NCBI GenBank assembly: GCA_001275005.1
Contig: JWZX01003325.1
Coordinates: 1-64,000 of the forward strand
Source of the DNA: Chrysochromulina tobinii
Lineage: Eukaryota; Haptophyta; Prymnesiales; Chrysochromulinaceae
Reading direction: 5' to 3'
Length of the DNA: 64,000 nucleotides
Position numbers and translations under genes: made by a program. The notes beneath the pieces are model-generated. The model searched no databases and was not told the origin of the DNA. It was given only the letters and a program-made list of their open reading frames with translations. Shown in pieces: positions 3,225 through 43,961 of the stretch; within the stretch, counting starts at the first letter, position 1; every line of letters begins with the position of its first letter.

Positions 3225-3769
3225 GTGACGGGTCCAAGAGAGAAAAATTTGGCTCGGGTCGGCTTGTACAACATGAGCCCCGAACCGAACCCACGATACA
3301 CCGCCAAAAAATAGTATACGACGAAGTCGCCCCGGCCACGCGCACGCCGGCGCAGCCATCGCCGATCGCGCCGAAAGATCGGCATCGGGTGGCAGCTACT
3401 CCCCCCGTGTGCCAGCGTCGCGTTTGAGGGCTCGCTAGTAGTACTACGTAGTACAATAAGTTGAGCTACTTGAACTCTTGAGCCTAGTTTTGCCCCTCAT
3501 GCTGTTGTAATCACACAGCCGCTCGGCTCAATGTCAATCAAGAATCATCAATCCTGTCGTGCTCGACGCGACCGCGAGGCAGCGCGACGAGCGCGACGTG
3601 CCAACGCGAGTCGCGACGATCAAGGCTAGGTAACCGTGTCAGTGCGAGCGCCAGGAGCTGATGTGTGCAAAGAAACACATATTAGCGTCACATATCGCGA
3701 CTACACGCTACGCCGTTCTAAACAATTCGTCTTCACTCAAAGATACTATACTAGTTACTACTACGCTTC
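3225..3769. other. Convergent 3' flanks (PIG-A and DENN-CNH genes)
   Basis: About 545 bases between two convergent stop codons. More AT-rich than the flanking exons. I see no gene; it presumably holds both 3' UTRs and polyadenylation signals. Confidence 0.5.
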
Positions 3770-18478: not shown

Positions 18479-18543
<65 letters not shown>

Positions 18544-21500: not shown

Positions 21501-22545
21501 TCAACGTACCTTGGTATTGTACTTGAGCGCATCGCAAAGCGGCGCAAGCGCCTTAGCGCCCCATTCGCGCACGTCTACTTCCATGCGGCTGAGCCAGCGG
21601 CGCACGCACAGCAACGCGGGGCTCGTCTCGACGGCTGGTCGGCCGCGCGTCATCACACCTTCAAGCACGTCTTCCGGCTCGGGGAGGCCGTGCTTGTTGG
21701 CGTGCATTGTGTAGCACGTGTGCAGGTTGCCATCGATTGCGAGTGGCGGGAGCCACTCGAGGGGCAGCTGGGCGAGGTTGACGCGCCTGCGTGCACCGGG
21801 CGCAGAAGGACGTGATGACGCGGACGGGTGAGCTAGGGCAGCGAGGCGGGGAGCAGGGGGGGCGGGGGAGCCGTGGGGGGCGGCGGGTAAATAAGGGACG
21901 GCGCCTTCTGAATCGAGGCCGAAGGCGGCCAGTTCCTGCGCGGATGGGGGGCGGATCTCGAGCGGCTCACATGAGACACGCGCAGTGCGCCGTCGAGCTG
22001 CAAACCCACAGGAGGGTCGCCAGCTGGCCCGCGATCTCAATGTTCGCCGAGATACTCCACGGTTCGCGACCGGGCTGCACGAAGTGCAGCGTGGCCTTGT
22101 TGCCCTCGACGACGGTCGCGCCAACTTCGAGGGCGTGGCAAGTGGTCTGCACGGCTGATCCCTTGATGATGAACAGGCGCCCAAAGCCCGTCAGGACCAC
22201 GATGCGCGCGCCAGCGTCGAGGCGCCCGCCGTCTGCTTGCAGCACATTCGCCCATGCGACAAAGAGGAGCTGTTCGCCGCCGTGGAACAAGGCGTGATTC
22301 CTCAGCGGATCGAGGACCGTGGATACGTTCACGAACGGTTTGATGCCCTGTGGCGAGCGCTTGGGGGCGATGAAGATGCAGTGCGGACCAGCAACCAGTG
22401 TGTCATCGAGGACAAATGTCGGGTCTTGGGGCCCTTGGAAGGGACTGAGCGTCTTCTTGACGCGGCGCATAACGGCGCCATCTGATCTCGAGAGCAAGAT
22501 GACCTCATCCTCGCCTGCGTACGATGTGGAGCAGCAGGCACCCAT
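16510..22545 (-). CDS. CARMIL-like PH/LRR protein fused to HMG-like and GT49 (LARGE-type) domains
   Basis: Exons 22545-21971, 21786-21510 and 21420-16510 join in frame to about 1,920 residues. It starts MGACCST, a possible N-myristoylation/palmitoylation signal. Residues ~100-190 resemble the PH domain of CARMIL proteins (ARIVVLTGFGRLFIIKG). Leucine-rich repeats of the ribonuclease-inhibitor type span ~285-780. After a lysine/alanine-rich helix comes a segment like an HMG box (FSDVWFTAWLRGWAKPY, then PPEQKEYYETLRD). Next are a repeated VPPGAIPG/VPAGHRPG motif, 19-20 consecutive glutamines, and a GT49 domain like that of LARGE/B4GAT1. This has PISLVTQCSLDRL, a DxD-type motif in LIDVDFVPS, and GHAPTDYATWQV, MNKVSHLY. 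The final 4.9-kb exon is open throughout, so the fusion is real at DNA level. No transmembrane anchor is seen, which is odd for a Golgi transferase. Confidence 0.65.
18481..18542 (-). repeat. (CAG)n polyglutamine tract
   Basis: About 20 CTG triplets on the plus strand encode a polyglutamine run on the minus strand, between the VPAG motif and the GT49 domain. It is a likely length-polymorphic microsatellite. Confidence 0.9.
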
Positions 22546-23394: not shown

Positions 23395-26300
23395 TCACGC
23401 CCCCGGCAGGTCAACCTGGAGTGGGTGGCCCGTCGACACCCGCTCCGCGATCGCCTCATGAAGGTGAGCCAGCCCCGCGGACTCGAGCGGATTGTGTAGC
23501 AAGCGCAACACAGCCAAGGCCGAGTTGGCACGTAGCGCGATGGCGAGTGCAGCGGCACCTTCACTGGTGACGCCGGCTGCGCTCAGATTGACCTCGCGCA
23601 CCATAGCATTGTGCTTGAGCACACCGGCGAGCATGCAAATCGCGCCCGTGCCCATGGCCGTCTCCTCCAGGCTGAGCTTCCTGATGCCCTCGAGCACATC
23701 GAAGGCGTTGGTGCGTGCGAATCGCAGGCTAAGAGGGCTACCGGGGTCGAGAAGGCTCCTGCCCAGCGTCCCGAGCACTGAGTCGGCCACCGGCGGCCAC
23801 GCTCGCACGTCGAGGAACGTGAGCGACGCATTGGCATGCAAGCCAGCGCACAACACTTTCCAATCCACCATCTGCAGCCCAGTATAGCTCAGGTCGAGCG
23901 ACCTCAGCACGCAGCTCGGGCTGCGCAGCCACGCCGATGCGGCCGCACTCGCATCATGCTCAAGAGGATTCGAGCCCAGATGCAGCGCCGAGACCATCTT
24001 GCCCATGCGTGACGAGTGGATCTCGGAGATGAGCTTGGCGGCCTCGAGCCTCTTCTCGAAGTGGCCATACTCACGGCTGCCAAGCTCGAGGCTTCTCCTT
24101 CCCTGAGGATCACCGTCCTCGGCCGTTGTGGACGAAACCTCGCTGTAGTCGGCCGTTGCGGACGAAAGCGCGCCGGAGGCGTCGGGTCGGAAGTGGACCC
24201 ACTCGCGAAAGTTGAGCCCGAAGCTTTCCATCGAGAGTGTCGCCGCCTCAGGCAGCGGCAGCGCCACGTCAGAGGAGCCTATGAGCACGAATCGGTGGCC
24301 GGAGAGCATCAGCTCCTTGTGAACGAAGGCCTCGATGATCGGTCCCATGAAGGCCACGTCATCTTGCAGCGCGTACTCGACGACCACCACGAGCGCGCAC
24401 ATGGAGAGCGCCTGCAGCAAGAGCTCCCGCACTCTGGCGCCCATCTCGGCGCTCTCTCCAAATTTGGAAGCCGCCAGCCCGATGAGCTCGCGCAGCATCG
24501 CGCCCTCGTCGATGAGCTGATGCACGCGGTTCATGTTGGCTGTGATGAAGGATGCAATCACCGCGTGCCGGAGCAGCAGCGGCACCAGCGGCACGGTGCC
24601 CGCCTCGTCGGCATCGCGCAGCGTTGCTGTGAGCTTGTACAGCACGTTCGTCAGCAACCACTCGCGCTGTGCCTGATGCACCGAACCAGCGCGCATTTGC
24701 ATCGGCTCGACGCTGTGGAAGCCCAACGGCCGTTTCGGCGACGGCTCGGCCAGGATGGCGACCACGTCGCGCACGCGGCGCACACCTTCGAGCTTGGGGT
24801 TTGCGGACGCCGTATGCGGCGTTACGAAGACCAACTGCTTCGCCACCTCGACGCGCTTGCCGCTAAAGGCCTCGACGACCGTTTCGTGCGCCTGCAGCAG
24901 CGCCTCACAGTACGCTGCCCGTGCCGCGCGGTAGTCGGACACCGAGCGCATGCAACTCGCAGTGGGGGAGGTGGCGTCCGGCCCGTCCAAGCCCATGCTC
25001 GTGTGGTTATACTGGTTTAGGTCGGCCTCGAGCAGCTGCCCCGTCTCGACCAACTGGAGTTGATGGCGCGCTCCAAACTGGAGCCACTCGACCACCACGG
25101 CGTCCACGAGCCCCGCCTCTTGATGCAAGAAGAGCAGCCGGCACCCAGGCTCGTAGTGCGCCGCCGTGATCGGCCGCACATTGATCGGGCTCGCGTCGAT
25201 GAGCAGCTCGCCGAATCCCGCGAAGACGGGCTGGGCCGGGTCGCGCGCCTTCTTCTTGAAACTCGCCGTCGATTGACGAACCATGTTGCGCGGCTTGGGG
25301 CGCTCGCTGCCCGCCGAGCCGGTGGCTCCGTCGGCCAGTTGAATGTTATCGATGCGCACACGCAGCCGGTCGTCATCGAGAAGCTCGATGACCGTGCCGC
25401 ACCCGAGCAGCGGACCCGATGCGCCGTTGGGCCCGCGGCTCACCACGCCCCCCTCATTGGAGCGCACCTGAAGCCGCGTGCCCTCCGCGCATGCAAACGC
25501 GAGGTGCGGCACGAGCTCGAGGTAGATCGATCTCCCAGAGATCTCCCGGTCGAGCTTGACGATGAGGGTGTAGTCGTCACCGCGCAGCACCTGATGAGAC
25601 AGAGGGAGTGGCAATCAGATGACAATCACATGGCCATCAAATGGCCATCAGATTGGATCCCCGAGATCTTCTGAAGAGGCGGAGGTCATTGTGTGGTAAT
25701 GAGTGCCCGACGAGAGACGATGAGTGGCAATCCAGGGCACTCCAGGGCACTCCAGGCCAATCAAGGCCAATCAGCGTACTGAGGCGAGCTGGCGCTCGTC
25801 ATCAATCATGTGCCACTCGTTCTTCAACTGCAGGCGCCTCTCGAGATCGTCATTGACGTTGAGCAGCTCTCGAGATTCGAATCGGTGCTTCTCGGGCGAC
25901 TGCTTGGCGGAGGCGCGCGGGAGGAGCTTGCCCACGACGTCGTCATTGACGGTGACCAGATCGATCTCGCGGTCGCCCGGTATGGCAACGAGCTCGTCGC
26001 TCAGCACGTGCGCGGCGCCGCAGCAGTTGTAGAGCAGCACCACATGGCCCACGTCGGACACGTGGTAGTGCCGGCTGAGCCCCTCCTTGAGCGGGCGCAG
26101 TGTCGGGCGCTTGGGCCGCGCGTTCAGCTCGCGCTTCGGCCACTTGCCGTTGCGACGCGGGCCGCCATCGTCGCCCTTCTGCTGTCGGACGAAGCTGCCC
26201 TCATCCTCTGGATGCTCGGCAAAGTACTTTTTGAGGGCTGGGACGCCCCCGGTGAGGGAGGTGCCCAGTAAGGGCACCAGATGCCGATCTCGCTGCGCGA

Positions 26301-29300
26301 GGAGCTCGAGATCGTGGTGGAGATTGATCATGTCGCGCGGCAAGGTGCGCAGCTTCGCGTTATCCGAGATGTCGAGCTTGCGCAGCGCGCTCAGGTTGCC
26401 GATCGCGGGTGTGAGTTGCGTCAGGTGATTCGCTCGCAGGTTGAGCGAGCGCAGTTTCGTCAAAGTGCCGATGCTTCCCTGGAGACGCGTGAGCTGGTTC
26501 GATTGCAGATTGAGCTCCTTGAGCGCGAAGAGCGTCCCAATCTTGGACGGGAGCTCCTGCAGCTGATTCCTCTGCAGCGAGAGGTGCTCGAGAGAGCGCA
26601 GCCGGCAGATCACCTCCAGATCGTAGCTCGAGCTGAGCTCGTTCTCATCGAGGTTGAGGGTCTCAAGGTGTGTCATCTTGCTCACCGCCACAAAGAGAGA
26701 CTGCACCGAGCCCATCGGCGGCGCCACGCTGTCGGCCGTGCTTTCGGCCGCGGCCGATGCTGCGCTCAGCACGCTGCCCGCCGCAACAAGCACCATCGTC
26801 GGCGCACGTCCGACGGCCTTGCCAGGCTCGCGCAGCCCGAGGCCGTTCTGACTCAGATCGAGTAGTTTGAGTGGCGCGTGCTCGAGCGCCTCGACGATCG
26901 GCTGCGCGCCGGTGGCTTGCAACCGATTCTTGGCGAGGCGCAGCGATTTGAGCGTCGTGTTGGCACGCAGGATCGCGCTGAGCGTCAAGCCCGAGATCTC
27001 GCCGAGATCGTGGCTGCTCAGGTCGATGGAGACGGCCGCCTGCGGTCCACGTGTCAAGTGAATCGGGATGGTCTTGCCATCGAGCGTGACCGCCGTGAAG
27101 GCCCCGTGCGCCCGGATGCCCTCCGCGAGCGTCCGCATGTCCTCCGGCGCAAAGGTCTCGAGAGGCGCGCTGGCAAGCTCGAGCTCTGTGAGCGAGCTGT
27201 TGTATCGAAGCGCCGTACCGAGCGCACGCACGTCCGCGGCGCGCTCGGCGGCGCGCATGGCGAGGCGCAGCTTCCTCATCGCACCTGTGGGGAAGAGGAG
27301 ACAAGGCGCCGTGGTGAGCGATTGCATGCAAGGCGAGCGCGCACGGCGAGGCGCAGCTCCCTCATCGCACCGTTGTGGCGCAGCAGCCCAAAGAGGAGGA
27401 GCAAGGCGCCTGGCTCGAGGGAGCTCTGCCGGCTCGTGGGGTCGTGCCGAGTGCTGATCAGATCGAGCACGCCGACCTCTTCGGTGATCTCGAGCGTCTT
27501 GGCCTCCTGCTGTGCGCCCGCGGGCAGCGTGACGCTGACATACTTGAGCTTGGCCTGGCACTTGTCCGTGAGCAAGAAGGCGCCGATCCGCTCCATTTGG
27601 TCATCGGTGATCGGGTTATTGCGCAGGTCGACCGACGTGAGCGATCGGTTCTGCGCGAGGCTGCGGAAGAGGAGTACGCCCGAGATCTCATTGCTCGAGA
27701 GATCGAGAGCGCTCAGGGTGCAATGCGGGCTATTCAGCGCCGCCACCATGTTGTCCAGCTTTGAGTCGACGAGGTTATTGGACGCGAGGCAGAGCTTCGT
27801 CAAGTTGGGGCACATGCCGCTAAGCACGTGGTCGAAGAGCTGTGGGGAACCTCGCGCGCCCAGATTGACGCCATTCAAATCGAGCGTGCGCAGCGACGAG
27901 GTCTTGCACGCCTGCATGAGCTCGAGCACTTTGCCGCCCTCGGCGCCCTGGCCAGGGTTGAGGCGCAGGCTCTCGATCTCCTCATTCTCCGAGATGAGCT
28001 CGGCGACGAAGGTGCACATCGCCTTGTCGAGCAGCTCACGGAGAAACTCGGTGGCTGAAGAGGTGCCATCGCTCTTGAGAGATGGGCACAGGTCCACGCG
28101 CGACACCTTTGTCGAGCCGTTGAGGCTCTGCAGGTCGAGCTTGATCTTACGCGCGCGGCTCGGATCTTGCGTGTCCATCTTCTCGAGATAGAGGTTCTTG
28201 AGCGTCTTGTTGGCGCGCAGCGCGATGGCGAGCACATCCACATGCTCGGGCCCGAGTGACTGCAGCGTGAGCGACACAAGGGTGCGGTTCGCCTTGAGCA
28301 GCCCCGCGAGCAGGCACCACGAGCGCGTGGATCGCACTTGCTCGCGATTCTTGAGGTCGAAGGTGATCTCTTTGAGGTACGCCTTGAGGCCATAGTTGCT
28401 GCACAGCCCGAGACGCCCGTGAGGGCTGCTCAGCAGCGCCTTGCCGAGGGTCTGCCGGTCGTCATCTTGGAGTCCTTCGCCCTCGAAATTGAGCTCGGTG
28501 AGCGTCGAGTTGGCACGGAGCAAGCCAGCCAACATGGTCGCGTCAGAGCGGTCGGCATTGGCCGGCCACTGCAGCGACGTTGCGCTCGAGGTGAGGTCGA
28601 ACAAGTCGACCTTGAGCGCGATGAGAAGCGGAGTGGGACGGTGGAGAAGCACGCGCCCAATAGCCTCCTTGGCGCGATTGTCGAGCTTGCCGAATCCGTC
28701 CTTCTCCTCGATCCCGATGTCGGTGAGCGTGGGGTGCTGGCGCAGGAGCCCCGGCAGCTCCTTGCAACGACCTGGCTGGTTGAAGCTCAAGTCGAGCTTG
28801 ATGAGCGACTTGCAGGTGGCCAGCGCGGTGCACACCGCCTTCATCCCCTTGTCGCCCAGCCCATTATTGCTCAGGTCGAGCTCGGTGAGCGTCTCGTTGT
28901 TCGAGAGCGCGCGCGTGAGCTGCTGCTTCTTCCAATCCATCTTGCCGATCAAATTGGAACGCAGCTTCAGCGTACGCAAGGACGTGCCGATCGTGAGGAG
29001 GGTCGAGAGCCCCGCATCCGACTCGTCATTCTCCTCGCCCACCTTGTTGCTTGACAGGTCGAGCGAGCGCAGGTGCGAGGAGGTGAGCAGCCAGAGCGCG
29101 CGCTTACCACCCGGGGTGAGCCTCGCCTCCGGTTCCGTCGCAAAGTCCCAATCGTGCCGCTGGAGCGCGAGCAGGTCGCCCAGCTTGCGCGCGGAGATGC
29201 GGCACGTGTTGTTCATGAACGGGTCGTTGACAAAGCTCGCCGCGCGCACGTCGGTGCTCCAACCGTCCCACTGGCCGTCACGTGCCTTGAGGAAGAGGAA

Positions 29301-32300
29301 CTGCGCGAACAGCCCTTCCTGGAAGGAGAGATGCTTGAACTGGTACTGCGCTTCCGCCTCGTCGGTCTGAGCCTCGAGCGTCTTCATGAGCGGAATGCCG
29401 CCCTCCTCGTTGTTCAGGTGCAACCAGAGCGTGAGTGCCTCGGAGAAGGGCATTTCCTTGAGAAGGGCGCGCGCCACGTCCCGCGCGCCGAACTGGCGAC
29501 GGCCTTGCTGCTGGTTGACTACGGCCACATGGCGCAGCATCACGAGCCCCGTGTTGTGGATCGAACCGCCATCGCGAATGAGCTTCAGGTTCGACTCGGC
29601 GAGCGCCATGATGATGCTGCGCAGTTGCTTTGGCATCGCGAGCTCGCACGCGTTGAGCACCGTCCGCGCTGCACCGTGGCGCGCCATATTCAAATACTTG
29701 GCCGCCTCCCGAAAAATGTCATACAGTTCGTTGTCGCCTCGATGCTGGCCCTGCTCGACGCTCTTGTGCACGGCCATGTCCCCGGTCGTGATGCCCTCGC
29801 CCTGGTCGAGGGATTTCTTGCGTGACTGCTTGCGCTCGCGCTTCTCACTGTCCAGCGACGACTGCACCGCGAGCGCTTTGGTCCGGTCCAGAGCAAACAG
29901 CTGCTGCCAGATCTGCACGAGCGTGCGCGTCGCGAGGGCGTCATCGTACACGATGCCCTCGGCCGAGTTGCCGCCGCCACGCACGCCGGTCACGGCCGTG
30001 TACGCTGTAAAAAAGCGTCGGTCAATGGCATGCATGATCCCCATCTCATACAGCTCGAACTGGTTCGTGGGCAGTTCGGCGAGGTCTTCGCCCCCCGAGG
30101 TGAAGATGAGCACGAGCAGTGAGAGCAGCACGGGGATGCCGGAGGCATCGACGAGGAAGAGCAGCGCAGGCTCGAGCAGCGCGTCGATCCGATCTGGCTC
30201 GAGCTTGCCTTCCATTTGCTGCCGGAAGAAGTGGTAGTGCTCGCTTGCATTCGTGTGGCCCGAGGAGCCGACGGCGAAGATCTCCTTGTAGTGCAGCTCG
30301 CACCGGCACTCGACCTCCGTCAAGCCGTACGTGAGCAGCATCGTGGCCTTGAAGGAGCGGAAGTGCGTAGGGTCGAGAGAGATGAACCCGTTCTGGAGCT
30401 CCGTCATGGTTAGCACGGCGTGAGGCTCTGACTCGATCCTGACCTCGCGTGGGTCGATCGGCCCATGGGCGGCGGGCCCTTGGACGCTCGAGTCCGCGAG
30501 CGCCGCCTCGGGCGCGCCTTCCTCGGCCAAGTTGCCCACGAGGCGCGCCACGAACCAAACGAGCGTCTTGCCCTTCTCAAAGATCACGCGGCAGTGCAGC
30601 ACCTCCGGATCGTCCTTCTGACCTCGGACGATCTCCACGCTGCCCGCGGCGCCCGCGTCTTTCTCGGCGCTGCCCGCGACTGCCTCGGCAAGCGCGTGGC
30701 GCAGAAGCATGTCGAAGACGGCCCAGCGGCGCTCGCGCGGCATCGTCACCTTCTCCTTGGAGTGGCGCACCGACACCGGCGTCTTCGCCGAGGAGGGGAT
30801 TGGCTCGTAGTTCGTCTCCGAGGTCTCGGGGTTCTCCGCACGCACGGGCAGGTAGAGAGCTTCGAGCTCAGATCTGACACCCTCACTCAGCTTCTGGTAC
30901 GCCCTGTCGAGGCCGCGCCGCATCTCGCCGAGGGCGAGCAGGTGGTCGAAGAACTCGGAGCCGCGCATCTGGGTGCCGATCACGGAGCGTTGCTGCTCAT
31001 TCGAGAGCTCCTTCAGGTCCAGCACCGAAAAGTGGCGATCGAGATACGGGTCCATATTCCCAATGCCCTCGACGCGGGAGGTGATGAGCACTCGATTTCC
31101 CGAGGGCACCAGAACGTCTAGGACGAAGGACTCGACCATCCTACGCAGCCCGGCCGCCTCATCGACGCCGTCGAGGATCACGATGAGCGCGCGCAGCTGG
31201 AAGGCTTGCTTGAGCATCTCGGCGACACGCCGATGCACAGCGTCCACGTACGAGCCGAACAGCGCGTGCACACCCTCGCTCGAGCCCGCCGTCGCGTCGC
31301 GGAGCAGGTAGACGATCTGTTGCACGTACAGCACAATCGGGCACAGCTTCATGCCCTTGTGCTCGGACCCTTTGGCGAGGGTCTCTCCCAAAATATACAC
31401 GGCCTGCTTGCACATCCACGTCTTGCCGGTGCCCGGCCCAGCGCGCACGAGGCACGCCTGCGACGGATGCTCGCCACTCCCGCGCTTCGGCGAGGGCATC
31501 GTGAGGATGGAGACGAGCGCCTGCACATTCTTGACCGGCTTGCCCAGGAGTGTGTTCGTCGCGCCGCCTACGGTGGAGGCCTTGACATCCACGTTCACTA
31601 GCTGGTCCTTGATCGCGAGCGTGTTGCCCGTGATCGCGTCCTCGACCTTCTCGTTGCGCGCGACCATGTCGAGGCAGTGCTGCACGCGCTGCTCCTCGTA
31701 GTCGGCCACGGTCTCGAAGCGCGGCTGGCAGTGGTTGTACTCGTTCAGATCTGCCGCCACGATGCTCACCTTGTCCTTCACAGTCATCTCGACCCAATGC
31801 CGATTACCCGCCTTCGGATCGGGTCGGTTGCCCCCTTTGTCATCCTTGCGCCTCTCGCTCGTCTCCTCCCATTCCTTTTTAGGCATCTCGACCACGCACG
31901 CGTCCACGCACTCGTCGTTGTGCAGGTACAAGATGGGGGTCGCCTTGGGGTAGCGCACCGTCGTCGTGGGCACGCATCGATCGGGCCGCGGGTCGACAAT
32001 CTTTTCCTCGGTGGTCGCATCCACACGCACCACGACGGTGTCGTCGCGTAGCACCCGTTGCACTGTCGACACACGGCCGCAATAGTCGCCCGGCGCGATC
32101 AGAGTGAGCCGCGCGCCCACGCAGCACGCGTACGCGAGCCACGGGCTGACCAGCAGGACGGCCCGCTGCACATGTCCCGGACGAAACTGGGGCGCCGTGA
32201 CGGGCGCGCCGCGAAGCGCCACTGCCCCCCCCTTGACGGGTGGAGCCGCTTCGTCCACCTCAATCTCCCATTCGAGCTCGAGCTCCAGCGTGCCTGGCCC

Positions 32301-35300
32301 CTGCCGAAAGTGGTGCACCAATCCGTAGTCGACCCCGGGCAGCCAGCGGTGTTCAAACGAGACACGCTCCTCGAAGGGGAGGCCCTTTTTGGCGGGAATC
32401 TTGACCTTGCCGAGCGTCGCACCATTGCGCGCGAATAGGCTGTACTCGTACTTCTCAGGCAGCGTCGACGTGTCGCCGATGACCAACTTGAAGCGCGCCT
32501 TGTTGCAATTAAAGAGGAGCAGCATGCCCGCCCCAACACCATCGAGCGACGGCGCCTGCACGTGGCGCGACTCTTGCTTGTCCATCAGAGCCGGTGGCCG
32601 CTCTTCGTCGCGAAGCTTGAACTCGCGCACCATCTGCTTCGCGTCCGCATGGTCGATCCTGGGCGGTCTGAGCTTCCTCTCCGGCTCGCGCTCCTCAACG
32701 GGCTTCGTCACTATCAGAGTCGCGGGGCGTTTCACGTCCTTGCCAGCGCGACGAACGGGCGCGCCCGTTACGGCGCCTTCGCGCTTCTCCTCCTTGCTGG
32801 ACCCACGCGCGCTCTTCAACGCCATCGACACGCTCGCTGGGCCTCCGAGGCTACCGCGCAGGGCGGCCGCGCCCGCGTCGCGACGAGTGGCCGTGGTCTC
32901 GGCTGTGGGAATCGTTTTGCGAGCCGTCAAGTTGCCTTCTTTGGCAGCTGATGGCGCCTTTTGTGGCGTCCCCTTGCGCGCGCTGTTGCCGCCCTGGGGC
33001 TTATCGGCATCGACGCTCTCGCCCTCAGCATGGTCCGCCGAGCTGCTGCCCTTTACGGTCGATGCCGTCCGAGGCATCGTATCGGGCGTCGCATTGTTCG
33101 GGTCGCGCGCCGATCGGTCGCCAAGAGAGGGGCGTGGCCCTTTGAACGGGTTCTCGCGCTTCGCGCGCTTCTTAGGTTCGAGGGGAACTCCTGTGGAAAG
33201 GGGGGGGGCGCCGTGGTGAGTACGCGCCTGCATGAAGTGCATCTTTAAGGTTCGAGTGGAGCTCGAGCTGCGGCGGCCGCAGCCGGCTCACCCTCGTTGC
33301 TAAGCGCCAGGGTCGGCATGGGAGGGCTCGACCCCGCACTAGGTGCCGGGGGTTCGGTGCCACCGGCGGAGAGCTCGTCTGCATCACTGACCGGCGTGAG
33401 ATCCGACGGCAGTGGCGGCGGTGTATCGGCTCGCGCGATCGCCCCTGAGGGTGGCGTGGCGGGTCGATCTTCCCCTCGATCTCCATCGATCTCCCCCGAG
33501 CTCGGTCCGTCGTCGCGTACGGCGGGCTGGGATGACCCGTCGCGCGGCGTGTCCTCAATGGGGGGGGTGGCATCGCCGGCATGCTGCTGCGCGGCATGCT
33601 CGTGCACCGCGCGCTTCACAATCTCGAGTAGCTCGGCCGATGCGCGATTGCCATTCAAGTCGATGCTCAGCGGTGAGGGCGTCTTGCGCTGAGAGGCACC
33701 GAGCGCTTTGATGAGCAACTCAAGCGCCGCACTTTGGTACGTTTCAAACGAGACCCACTCACAGTCGAGGTACTCGGTGTACACCCCACATAGCCGCCCG
33801 TTAGCCAGCGAGACGTGGGTGAGGCTTGCGTGTTGGCAGAGCGCCTTGACAAGTGCGTCGAAGCCCTCCGTGTGCCACGTACCAGACGGCAGCCGCCCCG
33901 CAAAGCGAGCGCCGAGCGCCGTGGTGAGCAGGGCGGCGTCCTTCTCCGATGCGCACGCTGCGCGCACCGCCTCGGGCGAGAGAGCAATGCAGAGGAGATT
34001 GGAGGACAGGTCGAGCACGGTGAGGCTGCTCGCTCTGCGCAGCACCTCGGCGAGCAGAGGGGCGCACTCGGCGTCGAGCAGGTTGTCACGCAGGCAGAGC
34101 GTGCTGAGGCGCGTGCACACGGCCGCAACGTCCACGAGCAGCCTGCATGCACCGACGCCGAGTTTGTTGCGCGCGAGATCGAGGGAGGTGAGCGCGTGCG
34201 GCTCGGCCGACGACAGTGTCATGTGGCCACTCCGGCCGAGTGCGCTCAGCACAAGGGCCGCACCCTCGTCCTTGAGCCAATTGTCGTTCAGGCAGAGCGT
34301 GCTCAGCCGAGGGCAGCTCTCGAGGCGCATCGCGAGCAAGCCAAGCCCGTCAGGGCTCCACGAGCCTCGCCCAAGAGGGTCTATGCCGCACAGGCCGTTG
34401 CGGGAGAGGTCGAGGAGCTCAACATGGCGCGAGAGGGCGCCTTCGAGCGCTCGAGCTACCTGCCGAGCGCCTTCAGAGGCCAGACAGTTGCCCGCGAGGT
34501 TGAGCGCGCGCGCAGGCGGCTCCGGGTCCTCGGCTAGCACCTGCAATATGAGGGGCGCCATCAGAGGTCATCAGCGGGCACATCGGCGGGCATCAGCGGC
34601 ACTCCTGGGCGGGCATCAGTCAGTAGCGGGCATCAGTCGGCTGGGGTCGTCGGCCAGACCTTGGCAAGAGCATACATCTCGTCGCCGCGGAGATTGTTGT
34701 CACTCAGGTCGAGGGAGTGCGCCGCGTGCAAGAGCAACGAGATGGCACGCAGCGCCGTCGGACGATGGCCTCCCAGCTTGGCACGCAGCTCAAGGGCAGC
34801 ATCCGTCTTTGAGAGCCCGCACGCCTGCAGCAGGCCGTGCCCGAACGCGCGCCCCATTTCGGAGCCGTGGCGCAACGTGTTGCCCCACCACGCCGACCAA
34901 CGCCATGGCTCGGCTGCCCGGGGTATAAGCCGCTGCCCGTTGCAGAGCGCGCGTGCCGTGAAGAACTCCTGGAAGGAGAGGTGCGACGACTGCATCTCCA
35001 GCGGAGAGGCGCTCAGCAAGCTGAGCAGCGGCAGCCGGTCTTGGCGCACTCGCTCGCGGATCCCTTGCATCGCGTCCTGCCACTCTTGGGGGAGCTCGCC
35101 GATCGCCTTGAACACCTCCGTCTGCATGCGACGGTGCTCCACCATGCTCATCGGGCGGGAAAGTTGGTTACGCAGCCCCGCTTCATTGGGCGGTCCGACG
35201 CCCACCGAGGCGCGAGCCCTCCCCCAGAGGACCGCCCCCTTTTCCGAGGAGCGCGCTTTGTTGAGAGAGGCCATATTCCGTGTGCCATCAACGGTCGACG

Positions 35301-38300
35301 CTCGAGCTCGAGTCGACGCCCTGGATGGAGTGCCGTCTGGCGAGCTCAGATGGCTGCACGAGCCCAAATTAGGAAGGTGGCTCGACGAGTCCGTGCGTGA
35401 GCGTAGCAGATCCCCCCCCCATGGAGTAGCAGATCCCCCAGCGAAGCGATCGCTCGCAGATGCCCCTGACCGGCGGTTGAGCGACATGATACGATCGAGT
35501 TCGGCGGGCTGGACGAGGCCGATGGCGGCAAGGGCCACACGCACCTCGGTGATGATACGCTTCTCGGCTGCGTGGGCTTGGAAGAAAGTTGCCTCGAGGA
35601 GCTCACGCATCCGCTTGCCTCCCGCGGCGTGCCTTGTCTTCTCACCGCGATCCTTTCGTTCTAGTTGGTCCAGCATAGCCGAAGCCGCCACGTCGTACAG
35701 CTCAGTGATCGTCCTAGGCATCGAGATGCCCATCTCGCCGCCGTCGCTGCCACCGGTCTGCGCGGCATCGGCGACGCCGAGAGCGTACATGCTGCCCTGC
35801 TTGCCCGGCTTGCCAGCCTGCTCATCCTTCGAAGCTTGGCGCGACATGAGGATCGAGATGACCATCGAGAGCATCAGCGGGTTACCGGTCACACGATGGC
35901 CCGTATCCTGGTCAATCGGTACCGTCGTCTTCACGTACTCGATCAGCCGTTGCGCCGCTGTCAACCCAAGCACCTGTTCGCCATCAGCATGCAACCCGAG
36001 ACCACGAGAGCGAGGCCATCAGCCGCAATCCGAGCGCAAATTCAGTGGCATCTGAGGGGGGCATCTGAGGGGGCCATCTGAGGGGCATCCGATTGGGGCA
36101 TCGCAATCGCGCACCGGCTCGACGCGCGATCGGATGACCACATGCTGCTGCTCATCACTCAACGGCTTGAGCTGGAGCCGCCGGAAGTGCGCCTTAATGA
36201 AGAGCTCCTGTGGAAAGGGGGTAGGCGCCGTGGTGAGCACTTGCATGCAGCGCAGAGCACTCGAGAAGTCTCCGACAAACTACCCACCTCGGGCAGACCG
36301 TTCGGGCGCGAGGTGACCACAATGACGAACCCCTGCGGCGCGAGCACCTCAACGATGTGCTGCTCGACGCGCTGGCGGGCGTGCCCGCCCTCGTCGATGC
36401 CGTCGATGAGGAGCAGCACGCGCCGCGCCACCATCGCCTGGCGCAGGAACAGGTATAGCTCCGAGCCGAGGCCGTGCACGAGGCATAGGTAAGCGTCGAC
36501 CCAGTTCCACGCACGCTCGAAGGCGGACACCACCTGTGAGGTTCGACGAGATCGCAATCAGATGAGATCGCAATCAGACGAGATCGCAATCGCAATCAGA
36601 CGGACACAACCTGAAGTTCAATCGCAATCAGTGGGGCATGAAATCGGCCATTCCACTCTATCGTGTATCTTGCCCCAATGATTGCGATTTCATGCCCCAC
36701 TGATTACCTTTTAGGGCCATCTCACGCCATAAAAGGTAATCAGACCCTACATGGTAATCAGTGCCCATTCAGAGTCCACTCCGTGCGCCCAATCAGTTGC
36801 AGACATGCAATCAGTTGCAATCAGTTGCAGACATGCAATCAGACATGCAAGTTGCAGACATGCAACACCCACCGATGGCTCCTTCGAGAGCAGCAGCTTC
36901 TGCAGATCCTGCACCTTGATGAGCACCGGCAGCACCTCCGCTCCGTCAAGGTCGAGGGAGTGCACCACAAGCTGTGAGAGCAAGCACGTCTTACCGGCCG
37001 CTGGCCCTGCCGTGAGCAGCACGCACGAGGCCAACGGTGGGGGCTGCGAGCGCCGCACGCGCCGCGCATGCATCGTGTGCAGCCACCGGCACAGCGACTC
37101 GACACTAGTGATCTTCAAGTAGTCGTCCTCGTCCGGCGCAGGGTCGCGCTCAAACGCAGACGCAACGTCCGACACGGTGCCCGCCACGGCGCCCGCCTTG
37201 GTCGGGGCTTTGGTCGGGGATTTGGTCGGTGATAGGCCGGTCCCCGGCTGCTCGCTCTCCGCCAGCAGGTTCGCGCCCGCAATCTCGATTGGGACGCAGT
37301 GCTCCTTGACGTCGAGCCGCTTGCCGGAGAGGGCGTCCACGATGGACGCATGCTGGGCGCGCATCGTACGCGCGTGGCGCACCTGATGAGGGAGGCAATC
37401 AGGGAGGCAATTAGGGAGGCAATTAGGGCGCGCATCGTACGCGCGTGGCGCACCTGATGAGGGAGGCAAATAGGGCTCATCAGAAGTCCTCAAGCTGGGC
37501 GCGCATCGCTCACATCACACACGCAGGGCGCACCCAGAGCTCCCAATTAGGGAGGCAATTAGGGAGGCAATTAAGGAGGCAATTAGGGAGGCAATTAGGC
37601 GCACCCAGAGCTCCCGAAACGATCGGAGGGGGATCTCGCGCGGCCCATGGTTGAACGGGTCCAGGTCAAGCTCGACCAGCTGGCCTTCGCTGTTCTCGTC
37701 CTCGAAGAGCAGCAGCTTGTGCCAACCGCCCCCCACCGGTTCGACCACGTTTGCATCGCACCAGTCGGCGGCTCCGTGGATGCCCTCGACGCGAACGAAC
37801 AACGGCTGGCCGGCCGCGTACTGGCGGAGGCCGCGGCAGCCCGAGGAGATGAACATCTTGCAAAAGTGCGCCTCCATCTCCTCGCGCTCCTTGGGCGCGA
37901 GCTCGTCCCGAGATTGCATCTCGCGCAGAGCTCCCTCGAGCTCGGCTTGCCGTCTCTCGAGGGTCGCTCGCACCGCCACGAGGACCTGCAAGTCCAAATA
38001 GGCTTGCTTCCGTATCTGCAGCAGCTCGATCGCCTCCTGCAACAGCATGTGCTCGCGCTGCAGCCCGCGTAGCCGCAGCGCCGTGCGCGCCTGCTTGGCC
38101 ACGTCGAAGCCCATGCGCCAGCTGGTCGCGACGCCCATGTCGGAGGAGACGGAGGGGGCGGCGGCGCTGGCATCGGCGGCAGCGGAGACGGTCGCGGAGG
38201 AGGCAGCGGGGGCTTCCCGGAGCATCCCTGAGCTCGATTTCGTCGAACTCGTCGAATTCGTCAACACTCGAGAGATCCGTCCCGAGAATGAGCGGGAGCG

Positions 38301-41300
38301 ACCAAGCGCCGTGCTGTGGGGCTTCCTCTGTAGGACGAGCAGATCTAAGTCGTCTCGGGGCCATCGGAGCTGGAGGCCAGGGCCGCGCACGCCACCCAGG
38401 GGTGCACCTGGCTGAGCTTCGTGACTCTCGCCCGGCGCGCCACGGCCATCGCCCTCCACGCCTCCCTTGCCCGCGCCCGATACGGCGCTCGAGCTCGCCC
38501 TTCGAGCTCGTGGATCGAGCTCGAGGGCGTGCTCGATCTCGTCGCGTGAGATCATGCGCCCCTTGCGCCCCGAAGCTTCGATGCGGTGCTCGGGCGGTGC
38601 GGACCCAAGTTTATGGAGCGCCGCTACCACGGCAATCCGCGCGTGCTCCTGGAGCCCAATCTCGTAGTGCAACTGGGCAAGCGAGATCTCGATCTCCTCG
38701 ATCTCCTCGGGCTCCTCGATCTCCTCGGGCTCCGAGATCTCGGCCTCCGAGATCTCGGGCTCTGAGATGTCGGGCTCTGAGAAGAGAGTCGAGTGCGCGC
38801 TGTCCCGGTGACCGTTACGTGCGTCGCCCCGTGTTTGGAGCCCTTCGGTGCGCCACTGTTCTGCGGCGAGAGATTCGCCCCTAGATTCACGCAGACCGTT
38901 ACGTGAGAGACCGTTGCGTGACTGGGCGAGAGATTCGCCCTCACGATCGAGCTCGATCAGAGCTGCGGCGATCTCGTCTGCCTGCTGCCGCTGGGCCCGG
39001 ACTCGTCGCGCCGTCTCGAGCGCCTCCGCCGTGCCCGATACGGCGCTCGAGGCCTCCTCGGCATCCAGGTGTGCGCCTTCGGCTTCGAGGTTCATGATGA
39101 ATACTTCAAGGCCCTCGGCATTCAGGTGACCGACACTGCTCTGGGCCGCCTCGCGCTGTAGTGTGAGTAACGTCTCCTGCAGCCGGCGCGTCTCTGCGTG
39201 CAGTCCCTCGGAGATCCTTTGGAGATTTTGGAGATCCGCCTGCCGTCGGCGCACCTGGGTGCGACGGTACTCGTACCGGAGCTGCTGGAGGCGCTGTGCA
39301 CGCCCATCGTGTGACCGTCTGATTGCGTGCTGATGACGCCCCTCGTGTAGCCGTCTGATTGCATGCTGATGATACTCAATCAGGTTGCTCGTGGTGCGCA
39401 GCTCACTGCTGAGATCGCGCACGCGCCGCACCCGCCGCTCGAGCACGGGTGACGAAACCTGCGCCTGCAATCGCTGGGCCGCCGTTGCGAGCGCCGCAGC
39501 CGACATGGACGGCGCGCCGCGCAGCAAGTCACGGAGCTCCTCAGCCACTTTGACGTCACGCCGTCCCTGTTCGACGATGGTCTCGAGGTACTTACCGGTC
39601 GGATCGGGGCGCCACGGCAGCACCTGATGAGGGACGCAATTCAGAGTCCTCAGCGGTCCTCAGCGGTCCTCAGGGCAATCAGAGGCCATCAGAGGCCATC
39701 AGAGGCCATCAGAGGCCATCAGAGGCCATCAGAGGCCATCAGAGGCCATCAGAGGCCATCAGAGGTCATCAGAGGCCATCAGAGGCCATCAGAGGCCATC
39801 AGAGGCCATCCTCCGCGGTGCTATGCGGCCATCCGAGATGGCAACGATTGGCAATCGCGGTCCTCCGTGGCAACGAGTGGCAATCGCGGTCCTCCGTGGC
39901 AACGAGTGGCAATCAACCTACCAGCTGGCTGAAGATGTCAAACGAGAGCGGCTGTACCACAAGCTCGGGGGCGAGGACGCCAACGACGCCGATGGTTTTC
40001 GGCCCGAGCTGCGAGCCCACCACGAGCCGCTCAGCACAGCGCGTTTGGGCGGCGGCACCGTCCTCGTGGCCATCAGTGCTCGCACTGGGTCGCAGCAGCA
40101 TGGGAGCGCCCTCTGCGAGCATCAGCGTGCTCTTGAAGGACGCTGCTACCATCGGCGGGGGACGCGGCCGGCGCGCGAGCACTGTTCGCAGAGCGTCGGC
40201 GCATCGGCGCACTGTGTGCCATGCGACGCGCTTCTTGTCGGTGGATAGGTCGACGTAGCGAAGGGTTGAGAGCGAGCGGTGCAACATCACAAAGAGGAAA
40301 TTGCATGCATGTAAGTCCGCAGGCTCCACCGCCGCATGCGCCTCTGTCGGGTCGTCTGAGCGCGAGCGGTGGCTGCACTTGGCCACCAGCTGGAAGGCGA
40401 GCTTGAGCACGCGTGCCGCGAGATCGAATGTCATTCGCTGGTGCTCGGCCCATGTGGACGGCGCGACCTGGTCAAACATTTCCCACAGCTCGAGCGGCTC
40501 GGGCGGTGGCTCGGGCAGCTGCGAATCGAGGGGCATCTTGTCACTTCCCCACAGTAGCCGATCGACGATCTCGCACGCCTCAGTCATGCGGCGCTCGCAC
40601 ACGGCTGCGTCGTGGACCAAACCGTCCTCGAGCAGCTGAAGCAGCCTCGCGTCGCCATCCTCAATGCAAGCCGCGTGCAGCTCGGACCGAGATCGCAACT
40701 TCGATTTGCGCTTCACGAAGGAGGAGGAGGAATCGTCCTGTCCGCCGCGCGCCGAGAGAGAGCCCAACATATTCCTCAGGCCGTGCTCCTCCGCGTGCTC
40801 CTTCGACGTCCTTGACGCCCTACTCTTGAACGACGAGTGCTCGTCAGCCGGGGCGACGACCTTGAACTTGAGTCGGTTGGCAACATCCTCCTTGATGCCC
40901 AGCCTGTCCTCGAGCTGGCGCGAGCTCGCTGCGTGCACTTCGTCAATCGACATAGGGATCGGATAGTACTCAAACAGGAGGACGCTCACCATCTTGGCCG
41001 CGTCGTGGAAGGGCATGTTCACACCGGCCTTGGCAAAGTCGATGAGCCACAGGCGGTCCTTGACGTCGACGAGCACATTGGCCGCATTCAAGTCACCATG
41101 CTGGTACAAGCGGAGTGGCTGCCACTCGGCAAGCCACGCGACGTCGTCGCCGCCCGTGCCGGACGAGATTGCCTCGAGCTGATGCAGTAATGAGACGAGC
41201 GGCTGGCAATTCACATCCGACCAGACGAGGCTCGGCACGTCGAGCACAAATGAGGCGGCAAACTTGTCGCGCTTGGCCACGCGAGACACATCAATGATGC

Positions 41301-43232
41301 GTTTCTGCTGCAGCTGCGCCAAAGCTGCCTGGACGTTGCTCGGTGGCTCATACTCCCGAGCACGCTCGTCCCGCACCCAGATGGCCGAGCCGGCGGGCGG
41401 CTTGTCAAAGACGATCACCATCGCCTTGGCGGTCGCGCGCAATTGCGTCGCAATCAGCCCGTCGAGCGCGACTGCATTGTAGAGGTCCCGCTGCACGGTC
41501 TTCAAGGCGAGATTGGCGAGCGCGCCGCCATGCCCCCACAGGTCATTCAGCACATCCATCGCCTCGCGTTCCCACTTGATCGTCGGTGGGCCCAAGGAAG
41601 CCTTGAGGGAAACGTGCGATTGCGCAGCCTCCTCCTCGGGTACTTTTTGGTGCATCTCGCGGATGAGTCGCTTCTTGAATGTGGCGAGCAGCTCGACCTC
41701 GAGCTTACCGAAGAATTCGGGCAGCACCCAGCATGCACCTGCCATCTCGAGCACCACTGCGCCGTAACCGATCGACTCGTCGACCACGCTGCGCGAGGGC
41801 GTGCCACTTGCGGAGGCCAGAGCGCGCGCTGAAGCCGCGCTGCGCGCCGTGCGCGCCGTGGCTGTCTCGCGCGCCGTGCCCAGCGCCATGTCGCGCCCCT
41901 GGCTGTCGACAAACTCAGGACCGCGGATGAGCTTGATGGCCTCGGCGCCCACGAGGTGCGAAATCTCCTCGGTGCGGCGCACCTCTTCGATCATCGAGTC
42001 TGCATAGTCGAGCTTGGTCACGGTAGGCTCATTAGGACGGCCCTGCATGTCGCGGCTGTCCGTCTGCAGCACGAGCGAGCCGGAGAAGCCGCCGTGCAGC
42101 TTGGTCGCGGTCACGTGCGCACGGCCGGGGAAGAGGCGCTCGAGCAGCCTCACGAGGGGTTGTTTCGCATAGTTCGGCTGCGCGAGCACGCCGCGCAGCT
42201 CAATGACGGACGAGAAGAAGCGCGGCGGCAGGTATCCATTCTCATCACCCTCGCACAGGATGACGCCATTCGTCGACTCGAAGAAACGGATCCCGTGCTC
42301 AAGCGCACTCGAGATGTCCACCCAAATGTACACAGCGCAGTCGTGGCGCATCCCCGAGATGACCGCCTCCTCCCCTAGCAAACCTTTGGCCAGGTGGATG
42401 TGGTGCCGTTCCATCTTATGCAGCCCCTGCGCGAGGATCTGCCGGAGCGCCGTGATGGTTGTGCCGTGCACCGCAAATGGGACGCTCGCCTCTTTTGTTT
42501 CGCTGTCAAACGTGATCAGTGTGCCAATCTGCTCGCCGACCTGCTTCATCGAATGGCCCTGCGCCGCCCGGATCTGGTACACTCCACCAGCCGTCGGCTG
42601 CTCACGCAACTCAAAGCGCTGCTTGTCATTGAGCCCCACCATCGCGTGCACGTGCTCCTCGGTCCACGTGCACGGCTCGCGCGGCGGTTCCGATTCGAGT
42701 GCCAGCTCGGCCTCGCGACGGTTGACATGCGCGATCGCATCAGTGAGTAGGACCCATCCGTCCGTGTCAATCGGCACGTCATATTCTTTGGCCTTGTGGC
42801 GGAGCAGCTTGCTCATCAGCTTGGAGAGCTGCACGTCATGCACCTCGCCGTACTTGCCTTTTATAATCAGCTCCGTCCCAGGCGCCGCCACGTCGTCGGC
42901 CGGCGGCGGTCGCAGCTGTGCGTCCGAGGCTGTGTCGGCGGCGAGGTGGGCTGCGGCTATGTCGATAGCTGGGAGCTGCTGCCTGGCGCTGACGTGACCC
43001 TTGGCGGCGTGGGAGGTGGCGGCGGCGGCGGCGGCGGCGGCGCCACCCTTCGGGCCGCGAGGCGAGGGAGCTCGCTTCCCGCGAGGCGAGGCTGCACGCT
43101 TGTCCCAAGATTCAACCCGAGATTCATCCCGAGATTCATCCCGAGGCGTGGCAGCTCGCTTCCCGCGAGGCGAGGCAACACGCTCGTGCGGCGCTGCGCT
43201 GCTGCTACCGTTGCTGCTACTGCTGCTGCCAA

Positions 43233-43277
<45 letters not shown>

Positions 43278-43851
43278 CTGCAATCGGAGCCGCCACGCAT
43301 TTGATCAACGGCCATGCGGCCTTGAGCTCGGGAGAGCGCGTGTCGAAAGCGCCCTCGCCGTACGATACAAAGGGCCAGTGCTCTGACCAGCCCTCCGAAT
43401 ACGAGACAAAGCCAATCGATTCCTCGCAGTCCGGGAGCGGGACTGGCTTGAGCGCCGCTCCTGGCAGACTGGGTGCCAATGCGGCTGCGTCCGCTGGTCG
43501 CAACCCAGCCTTAGCTAACAAGTGACGTGCCACCACAACGATCGCTCGCTCAGAGGTGTTTCGCTTGGCCATGGTCAGCGCACGCTTGATGGCTAGCTCG
43601 AGCTCGGCCAACTCCGTTGCGGAGGCTGCAGGCTGGCTCGAGGAGATTACTGCTGCAGTGCCAGCGGGGCGCTTACCACCGTGCCAATCGAGCAAGAACT
43701 GGCCGAGGAAATGCAAGCGTTCGGCAGAGCTGCGAGGACTGCGAACCGCCAGGGCTGCGTTCAGCGCCAGCTGCACCTCGCGCCGCTGCTCCAGCCAGCT
43801 CATCGAAGTGACGGGGACGCAGGGCACTTGGTGCAATTTGGAGCCCTGCAT
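23395..43851 (-). CDS. Giant Tpt1/KptA - APH-like kinase - triple NACHT-LRR protein
   Basis: Ten exons (43851-39922, 39623-37605, 37382-36873, 36533-36288, 36207-36115, 35973-34660, 34540-33292, 33190-27371, 27284-25780, 25590-23395) keep frame to 18,882 nt, about 6,293 residues. Residues ~335-550 are an RNA 2'-phosphotransferase domain; ~570-1010 an APH-like kinase fold; ~1050 one ankyrin-like stretch; ~1320-1900 coiled coil. Three modules of pre-NACHT domain, NACHT and LRR follow. Module 1 has GPAAGKT (~2110), LLLIDGIDE (~2195), TSRP and GNPLMLSM. Module 2 has GPGTGKT (~3704), VILDGVDE (~3791) and ITSR. Module 3 lacks the P-loop. LRRs follow each, with SDS22-like repeats in exon 9. Each splice restores NACHT or LRR sequence, the main argument for one gene; cDNA could still show two or three. 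No membrane segments. An NLR-like intracellular sensor is inferred. Confidence 0.7.
24060..25590 (-). other. Degenerate NACHT module 3 (within the giant gene)
   Basis: The pre-NACHT signature is kept (EADLNQYNHTSM, VVEAFSGKRVEV), but no GxxxxGK[ST] follows where modules 1 and 2 have it. The Walker B position reads LVVVVEYALQDD, and RFVLIGSSD stands where the others have TSR. It is probably a non-hydrolysing pseudo-NACHT. A short LRR tail ends the protein at 23395. Confidence 0.65.
27251..27371 (-). repeat. Class-B intron with 35-bp flanking direct repeat
   Basis: The intron 27370-27285 (86 nt) is bounded by 35-bp repeats (27251-27285 and 27337-27371) that match at 33 positions. The interior holds CTTGCATGCAATCGCTCACC and ends TTCCCCACAG. 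Splicing anywhere within the duplicated block would give the same frame. Confidence 0.8.
30050..32560 (-). other. NACHT module 2 with pre-NACHT domain (within the giant gene)
   Basis: Within one exon. A beta-rich region (LLLFNCNKARF onward) leads to DLNEYNHCQP and VEDAITGNTLAI. Then come Walker A RAGPGTGKTWMC, Walker B LIVILDGVDEAAG, sensor VLITSRVEG and SGIPVLLSLLVLI. An extended linker and a long LRR array follow. Confidence 0.85.
36534..36872 (-). repeat. Intron carrying two inverted repeats (MITE-like)
   Basis: The third intron of the giant gene. AATCAGTGGGGCATGAAATC (36626 on) is answered by its reverse complement GATTTCATGCCCCACTGATT near 36687-36706; the arms are about 21 bp, loop about 38. 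A second, smaller pair, ATTACCTTTTA and TAAAAGGTAAT, lies at about 36703-36741. The rest is built from ATGCAATCAGTTGC-like units. Confidence 0.75.
37383..37604 (-). repeat. Intron with duplicated exon edges and TAATTGCCTC decamers
   Basis: The second intron of the giant gene. A ~40-bp stretch covering the true 3' splice site and start of the next exon (GTGCGCCACGCGCGTACGAT) is copied inside the intron at about 37427-37469. GAGCTCTGGGTGCGCC from the donor side is also copied at about 37538. Decamers fill the rest. Confidence 0.75.
39624..39921 (-). repeat. Intron with 13 tandem GAGGCCATCA decamers
   Basis: The first intron of the giant gene. The sense strand starts GTAGGTTGATTGCC. It contains two copies of a CGTTGCCACGGAGGACCGCG-like unit, then about 13 tandem TGATGGCCTC decamers, and ends TGCGTCCCTCATCAG. 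The decamer is the same family seen in introns of five other genes here. Confidence 0.85.
40800..42150 (-). other. APH-like kinase domain, possibly TCAD9-type (within the giant gene)
   Basis: The motif RLYQHGDLNAANVLVD, followed by LWLIDFAKAG, is the catalytic loop and metal-binding motif of the aminoglycoside-phosphotransferase-like kinase fold. The N-lobe candidate is TKLHGGFSGSLVLQTD. Similar domains in conflict-system proteins have been named ternary-complex-associated domain 9; I cannot test that here. The substrate is unknown. Confidence 0.6.
42150..42860 (-). other. Tpt1/KptA RNA 2'-phosphotransferase domain (within the giant gene)
   Basis: Tpt1/KptA moves the 2'-phosphate of a spliced RNA junction to NAD+, giving ADP-ribose 1'',2''-cyclic phosphate. 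The domain looks complete and catalytically intact. The SKLLRHKA motif carries the Arg-His pair; GLNDKQRFEL and IRAAQGHSMKQV follow; FAVHGTTITALRQILAQGL and HHIHLAKG give the NAD-binding HGT and HxH elements; then HGIRFFESTNGVILCEGDE and GYLPPRFF. An N-terminal ~330-residue extension with poly-Ser and SPRGKRA repeats precedes it. Confidence 0.85.
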
Positions 43852-43961
43852 GGGTGGGGAGCCAAGAAAAAACTTGACGAGTTTGGGGAGTTTGAGCTCA
43901 CAGCGAGATTTATCTTCCTCATGCCTCTTACCTCATGCTTCTTGAGCTCCCAAATGCGCGT

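Follow-up and report, generated by a model that had tools for sequence, protein, structure and literature searches.

A giant gene joining KptA, an APH-fold kinase and serial NACHT-LRR modules in the haptophyte Chrysochromulina tobinii

Receptors of the nucleotide-binding, leucine-rich repeat (LRR) type (NLRs) in which an enzyme or effector precedes the nucleotide-binding domain and is swapped among relatives include moss kinase-NLR genes (PMC7145615) and, in fungi, NLRs whose N-terminal domains have been exchanged (PMC4986451). We analyzed a 64,000-nucleotide window of Chrysochromulina tobinii DNA (the whole stretch under study, from contig JWZX01003325.1) in which one predicted gene has this layout: a KptA/Tpt1 RNA 2'-phosphotransferase domain and an APH-fold kinase stand ahead of a chain of NACHT-LRR modules, and the product is best read as a giant NLR-like receptor. 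The moss kinase differs in being PF00069 (PMC7145615), loss of NOD and LRR has been proposed for the fungi (PMC4986451), and KptA is named in the accessible text of neither paper. Compared with the animal NLRs (NOD2, NLRP3, NLRC4, NAIP), the window protein of ~6,300 amino acids has the putatively enzymatic KptA and kinase where CARD or PYD would be, an extra domain before every NACHT, and serial NACHT-LRR modules of which the last appears nucleotide-dead.

KptA uses NAD+ on RNA 2'-phosphates, and ADP-ribosylation of 5'-phosphate ends has also been reported for human TRPT1 and a relative from bacteria (PMC6333775, PMC11833690). The window domain resembles these Tpt1/KptA enzymes in its full-length PTS_2-RNA domain, essential tetrad and HGT motif but adjoins a kinase within a giant STAND protein. 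KptA and Nudix are described as components of NAD+/ADP-ribose networks in virus-host conflict, and the two are reported to be fused in Bodo saltans mimivirus; that protein is viral and the available text mentions neither NACHT nor LRR with it (PMC9503650), whereas the window family looks cellular and has KptA in some paralogues where others have Nudix. Bacterial conflict systems include some active APH-superfamily kinases, with sporadic NACHT NTPases among their parts, in the accessible portion of PMC7159879; the window gene differs in encoding one polypeptide that includes KptA and LRRs.

Gene model and domain order

With the splice sites set manually, the spliced frame translates as a single minus-strand gene of 10 exons and nine GT-AG introns (80-339 bp). 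It stays open for 6,320 codons between 43932 and a stop at 23395, and translation from the first in-frame ATG (43851) yields a product of 6,293 amino acids (Table 1). The introns come after residues 1337, 2010, 2180, 2262, 2293, 2731, 3147, 5087 and 5589, residue numbers being counted from the frame start at 43932. Coding periodicity is present in 10/10 exons, with G+C content (GC) lowest at the second codon position (GC2, 0.29-0.54) and highest at the third (GC3, 0.76-0.91); intron GC is 0.49-0.67 and that of the window is ~0.60-0.72 in 2-kb steps. Least secure is exon 5, with 31 residues, because the usual low second-position difference is missing from its codon comparison with the paralogue on contig C1990 (see below). 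With this model and the periodicity of all its exons, the original prediction of a ~6,300-residue, ten-exon in-frame gene is borne out.

The predicted KptA domain matches PTS_2-RNA (PF01885) over profile positions 2-177 of 177 (E 1.2e-49; 169.2 bits, cut-off 26). Its nearest solved structures are tRNA 2'-phosphotransferases (E 1.3e-25 to 1.5e-22), which we take to be eukaryotic, and chains named 'probable RNA 2'-phosphotransferase' are clearly further away (E 9e-9 and weaker). The LLRH, KQRF, HGT and SGMR segments align with tRNA 2'-phosphotransferase 1 (7yw3). An Arg-His-Arg-Arg tetrad is reported as essential in Tpt1 in the available part of PMC6333775. All seven key residues, the tetrad and the HGT motif, are present in the window domain and kept in C1990; at 36% overall identity the chance of 7/7 retention is ~0.0008 by our own arithmetic, a figure that indicates retained constraint only, because such residues are conserved across the family anyway. 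An intact KptA, as predicted, thus finds support in the full-length match and the key residues, and the domain is a candidate NAD+-dependent 2'-phosphotransferase.

The kinase is matched above cut-off by both TCAD9 (E 1.8e-15) and APH (E 4e-6), and its putative catalytic motifs, HGDLNAAN (HxD....N) and LIDF with the metal-binding Asp, are present. Profile and fold comparisons both placed it in the APH superfamily, and a sequence-only search of the PDB with the kinase alignment returned three aminoglycoside/macrolide phosphotransferases (E 0.02-0.08). The predicted APH-like kinase is supported. The tie of TCAD9 to bacterial or MoxR-vWA ternary conflict systems is by Pfam name only, since the word TCAD9 is absent from the accessible text of PMC7159879.

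The predicted NACHT-LRR chain makes up the C-terminal two thirds of the protein. Modules 1 and 2 and modules 2 and 3 are homologous (BLASTP E 4e-23 and 2e-24), and a fold test recognized the NACHT fold. Walker A and B are present in modules 1 and 2 of both the window gene and C1990 and absent from module 3 of both, which leaves two competent-looking NACHT modules rather than three and suggests that the degeneration of module 3 is old and the module retained. Of the three serial NACHT-LRR modules proposed originally, the serial layout therefore holds while the third nucleotide-binding module does not. LRR_6, LRR_4 or LRR_8 scored above cut-off in exons 7, 8 and 9, and the LRR of exon 10 scored below it (19.2 vs 23.4).

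Table 1. Positions of exons, selected introns and domains of the predicted gene in the window.
Feature	Position	Strand	Remarks
Exon 1, coding part	39922..43851	-	Frame open from 43932; partly low-complexity N-terminal region, KptA, kinase
KptA/Tpt1 domain	42247..42840	-	Tetrad R378, H379, R439, R529; HGT 489-491
APH-fold kinase (TCAD9/APH)	40875..42153	-	H945, D947, N952, D965 present
Intron 1	39624-39921		Short tandem repeat arrays inside
Exon 2	37605..39623	-	Charged linker (by eye), then pre-NACHT1 domain with DLDPFNH as its end
Intron 2	37383-37604		Short tandem repeat arrays inside
Exon 3	36873..37382	-	Start of NACHT1; Walker A GPAAGKT from ~37007
Intron 3	36534-36872		Short tandem repeat arrays inside
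Exon 4	36288..36533	-	Walker B LLLIDGIDE and TSRP of NACHT1
Intron 4	36208-36287		CTCACCACGGCGCC near 3' end
Exon 5	36115..36207	-	31 residues of NACHT1
Exon 6	34660..35973	-	NACHT1 GNPL motif, helical region, start of LRR1
Exon 7	33292..34540	-	LRR1; spans sole gap of paralogue C1990
Intron 7	33191..33291	-	101 bp; LRR1/NACHT2 boundary; 14-base 3' element
Exon 8	27371..33190	-	Pre-NACHT2 domain, NACHT2, LRR2
NACHT2	30857..31460	-	Walker A GPGTGKT, Walker B ILDGVDE, TSR
Intron 8	27285-27370		CTCACCACGGCGCC near 3' end
Exon 9	25780..27284	-	Remainder of LRR2, start of pre-NACHT3 domain
Intron 9	25591-25779		Short tandem repeat arrays inside
Exon 10	23395..25590	-	Module 3 with degenerate NACHT, sub-cut-off LRR; stop 23395
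Degenerate NACHT3	24180..24750	-	GSVHQAQREW at Walker A site, VVVVEYALQDD at Walker B site

Paralogues and gene unity

The strongest evidence that this is one gene is the diverged paralogue C1990, which carries the whole domain order in two stop-free frames, 33367-25535 (2,611 amino acids) and 25308-13912 (3,799 amino acids), with identities to the window of 36% in KptA and 53%, 42% and 29% in modules 1-3. By tblastn, window residues 367-1376, 1914-2455 and 2583-2814 fall in order on the first frame and residues 2845-3022, 3368-3926 and 4071-6290 in order on the second, the remaining matches being cross-matches among modules. Eight of the nine window introns lie inside aligned blocks; the ninth, after residue 3147, separates two blocks that belong to a single C1990 frame, and with low-complexity masking turned off it comes to lie inside a block (2845-3301, 26% identity). 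The gap between the two C1990 frames sits within window exon 7 and is bridged both by that exon and by a third locus, C2119, a single frame of 4,493 amino acids. A stop-free stretch of 1,166 codons in C2119 aligns to C1990 on either side of the gap and through the linker into NACHT2 (frame 1, 2319-2572, E 1e-56; frame 2, 81-272, E 5e-26, and 492-756, E 6e-57), the LRR1-NACHT2 linker being conserved at 41% identity over 278 columns (E 6e-57). The C2119 frame also has a strong module 2 match and a weaker second match (query 134-347, 29% identity) at the place of module 3. The order shared with C1990 and the introns within aligned blocks thus argue for the single fused gene that had been predicted. 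The idea that two neighbouring types of gene had recently fused was considered and dropped, as the C2119 frame has LRR1-NACHT2 continuity and no kinase was found there.

Introns 4, 7 and 8 have a 14-base element, CTCACCACGGCGCC, in common near their 3' ends, which recurs elsewhere in the window and the genome: the window holds seven matches at up to one mismatch, four of them exact, against 0.11 expected, and a longer pattern including the splice end has 13 exact genome matches (those in introns 4 and 7 included) and none for the reversed control. These introns are introner-like. Intron 8 is flanked, at 27371 and 27284, by an imperfect ~35-bp direct repeat (GTGCGATGAGG.AGCTGCGCCTCGCC.TGCGCGC) resembling a target-site or exon-edge duplication.

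Across the genome searched (53.15 Mb, 2,253 contigs), the kinase occurs on 12 contigs including that of the window, 11 of which also carry NACHT; on eight (C1990, C482, C1687, C729, C1297, C2246, C1471 and C1713) the equal lengths of their frames indicate that kinase and NACHT lie in a single stop-free frame. Eleven kinase genes were read, the twelfth contig, C2044, being left out. What precedes the kinase varies. Intact KptA is found in two genes, those of the window and C1990, and decayed KptA in C1389 (profile E 1.1e-6; the contig begins within its gene, the 5' part lying outside), C482 (E 2e-4, below cut-off) and C1471 (by eye). C1687 has a Nudix-like domain there (24.3 bits, cut-off 21.1), and in C729, which is 84% identical to it, the Nudix-like score falls below cut-off (17.6 bits). 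The N-terminal regions of the C1297, C1434, C1713 and C2246 genes are named by no profile; C1713 and C2246 were not counted as Nudix genes, their presumed remnants being below the Pfam cut-off, and a Dpy-30-like N-terminus was dropped (E 0.32 in C1713, absent from the window listing). When ten isolated pieces were run against Pfam, the C1687 Nudix and C1389 KptA pieces passed the cut-off; below it were the N-termini of the window gene and C1713, the kinase insertions of C1687 and C729, the pre-NACHT1 domain, and the remnants presumed to be of Nudix in C2246 and C1713 and of KptA in C1471. Module 2 has 90 genome matches, counted as pieces and not as genes.

The insertions of C1687 and C729 are ~200 amino acids long and lie between the kinase lobes (LSHAWQ...FWDFLSIHQK in C1687); that of C1687 is matched by no family above cut-off, and a weak RRM match lies near it (E 0.012, below cut-off). 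Relatives of the C1687 Nudix-like domain on C2125, C1357 and C1808 are in shorter frames with no kinase match. NACHT genes occur in very large stop-free frames of up to 4,493 amino acids, and PF05729 has 34 matches genome-wide. Downstream of the window gene, a minus-strand frame of 1,680 amino acids (16510-21552) matches Glyco_transf_49 (E 4e-50), with an LRR match below cut-off.

A receptor reading and its rivals

Several features of the layout, namely enzymes, switch NTPases and LRRs in one chain, argue for a triggered receptor, and an NLR-like receptor is the best-supported reading of the window gene. In its full form, a giant NLR-like STAND receptor encoded by one gene, with N-terminal KptA and APH kinase followed by two competent-looking NACHT-LRR modules and a nucleotide-dead third, we give this reading an even chance. 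The LRRs would hold the protein off until released by a ligand, be it a pathogen, RNA damage or modified self; ATP binding and assembly of NACHT1 and NACHT2 would follow, gathering copies of KptA and the kinase, which would be switched on. KptA would strip 2'-phosphates with release of ADP-ribose cyclic phosphate, or ADP-ribosylate RNA ends; the kinase, of the small-molecule type, might phosphorylate a product or a second target, and the third module could act as a conserved scaffold or regulatory NACHT. The occurrence of KptA and Nudix at the same place, together with the networks described in the available text of PMC9503650, suggests ADP-ribose/RNA-end chemistry as a theme. We only infer that the protein senses viruses or damage, and likewise what chemistry forms its output.

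Other observations weigh against the receptor reading. Among the five loci where KptA is seen it is decayed in three (one by eye), and six of the 11 genes read, including C1990 (HGDLRPAQ), have an altered kinase motif, so that catalysis is not retained family-wide. NLRs normally have a single NACHT. The Pfam families expected from the original prediction were found exon by exon for PTS_2-RNA, APH/TCAD9 and LRR but not for NACHT: PF05729 gave no match in exon-by-exon scans at E <= 1, and the window contig (C2166) is outside its 34 genome matches. With the exons joined, NACHT1 just passes (26.8 bits, cut-off 26.7), NACHT2 scores 15.5 and module 3 gives none; the paralogues C1713 and C729 pass the cut-off. 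When the NACHT alignment was run as a sequence profile against the PDB, it returned eight AAA+ matches (FtsH, Cdc48, Pch2-like; E 3e-4 to 0.07), no NLR among them.

The persistence of decayed KptA lobes and of altered kinases in these paralogues could instead mean that the two enzymes serve as recognition or integrated-decoy domains. KptA would then bind RNA ends that are damaged or carry a 2'-phosphate, or else a pathogen factor directed against such ends, and the NACHT-LRR chain would make the output. We regard this as unlikely but deserving of some weight, because the decayed copies show that a KptA domain can be kept without being catalytic; plant NLRs into which exogenous domains have been integrated are also reportedly in print (PMC5819176). 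Against it, the window gene and C1990 keep 7/7 KptA key residues despite their divergence, the window kinase is intact, and the N-terminal position is the usual effector place in NLRs.

All three PTS_2-RNA matches at E <= 0.001 in the 53 Mb lie on contigs of the window gene family, in a search that was not exhaustive, and for this reason we keep a small probability for the gene supplying the cell's Tpt1, as a constitutive or stress-induced 2'-phosphotransferase for RNA repair or tRNA splicing that is now NACHT-LRR-regulated. The closeness of the domain to tRNA 2'-phosphotransferase structures would fit, as would the genes with T4-Rnl1-like RNA ligase domains on C2003 and C2135. However, RtcB is present (C1809), and RtcB-type joining leaves no 2'-phosphate. 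As for fungal-type tRNA splicing, which pairs Trl1 with Tpt1, the Trl1 domain PF09511 has two genome matches, and PF08302 (Trl1 CPD) has none in a search whose controls were silent too, which counts neither way. Moreover, the PTS_2-RNA search missed the C482 remnant seen by hmmscan, an intron-split stand-alone Tpt1 could escape it, and ~53 of a likely 59 Mb were covered.

That the gene is a decaying, functionless copy, as the lost motifs of module 3 and the decayed enzymes of some paralogues might suggest, is quite improbable given 6,320 open codons with periodicity in every exon, intact key residues in KptA, kinase, NACHT1 and NACHT2, and a module 3 that is degenerate in C1990 alike. Least probable of all is that two or more adjacent genes (KptA-kinase-NACHT1-LRR and NACHT2-LRR-module 3) were misread as one: module 2-type NACHTs do lie on many contigs without a kinase match, and if exon 7 is read on past its donor site into intron 7, its frame hits a stop at 33245, two bases before an ATG in the exon 8 frame, but the 3,799- and 4,493-residue frames of C1990 and C2119 cross the LRR1-NACHT2 boundary stop-free through a conserved linker, two genes would be allowed zero intergenic space, and intron 7 shares its element with introns 4 and 8.

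Implications of a possible NACHT-LRR receptor

Taken from its sequence, the window gene is real and unusual, a probable NACHT-LRR receptor gene with the domain order first noted and a degenerate third NACHT; its unity, domain order, intact predicted motifs and paralogue family are established at the level of sequence. A 2010 survey did not find LRR-receptor genes in the haptophyte Emiliania huxleyi, in the part of the text available (PMC2939053). For the combination of KptA/Tpt1 with NACHT none of the titles listed was relevant, the wider literature being sampled at the top of long lists, so that absence in print is unproven. In viral_contigs, pattern searches found 3 matches for KptA by itself, 55 for the KptA pair and 13 for the kinase alignment, and tblastn confirmed none of them; this is a weak negative for a viral source, as the patterns were few and strict.

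We propose tentatively, at somewhat less than an even chance, that the gene represents a receptor family beyond animals, plants and fungi in which NACHT-LRR sensing is coupled to NAD+/ADP-ribose RNA-end chemistry, with KptA and Nudix as outputs that can replace each other next to an APH kinase, two working NACHTs and a dead one in one polypeptide, and the cell's only recognizable Tpt1 inside it. An active protein of this kind would be an NLR-type receptor with an RNA-repair or ADP-ribosylating effector, joining innate sensing and RNA-end chemistry in one chain, and the cell could answer damage or infection by chemically changing RNA ends. It would further open to experiment the questions of why NACHT modules that are nucleotide-dead should be retained and how a single-celled, alga-like organism gained a large NACHT-LRR repertoire.

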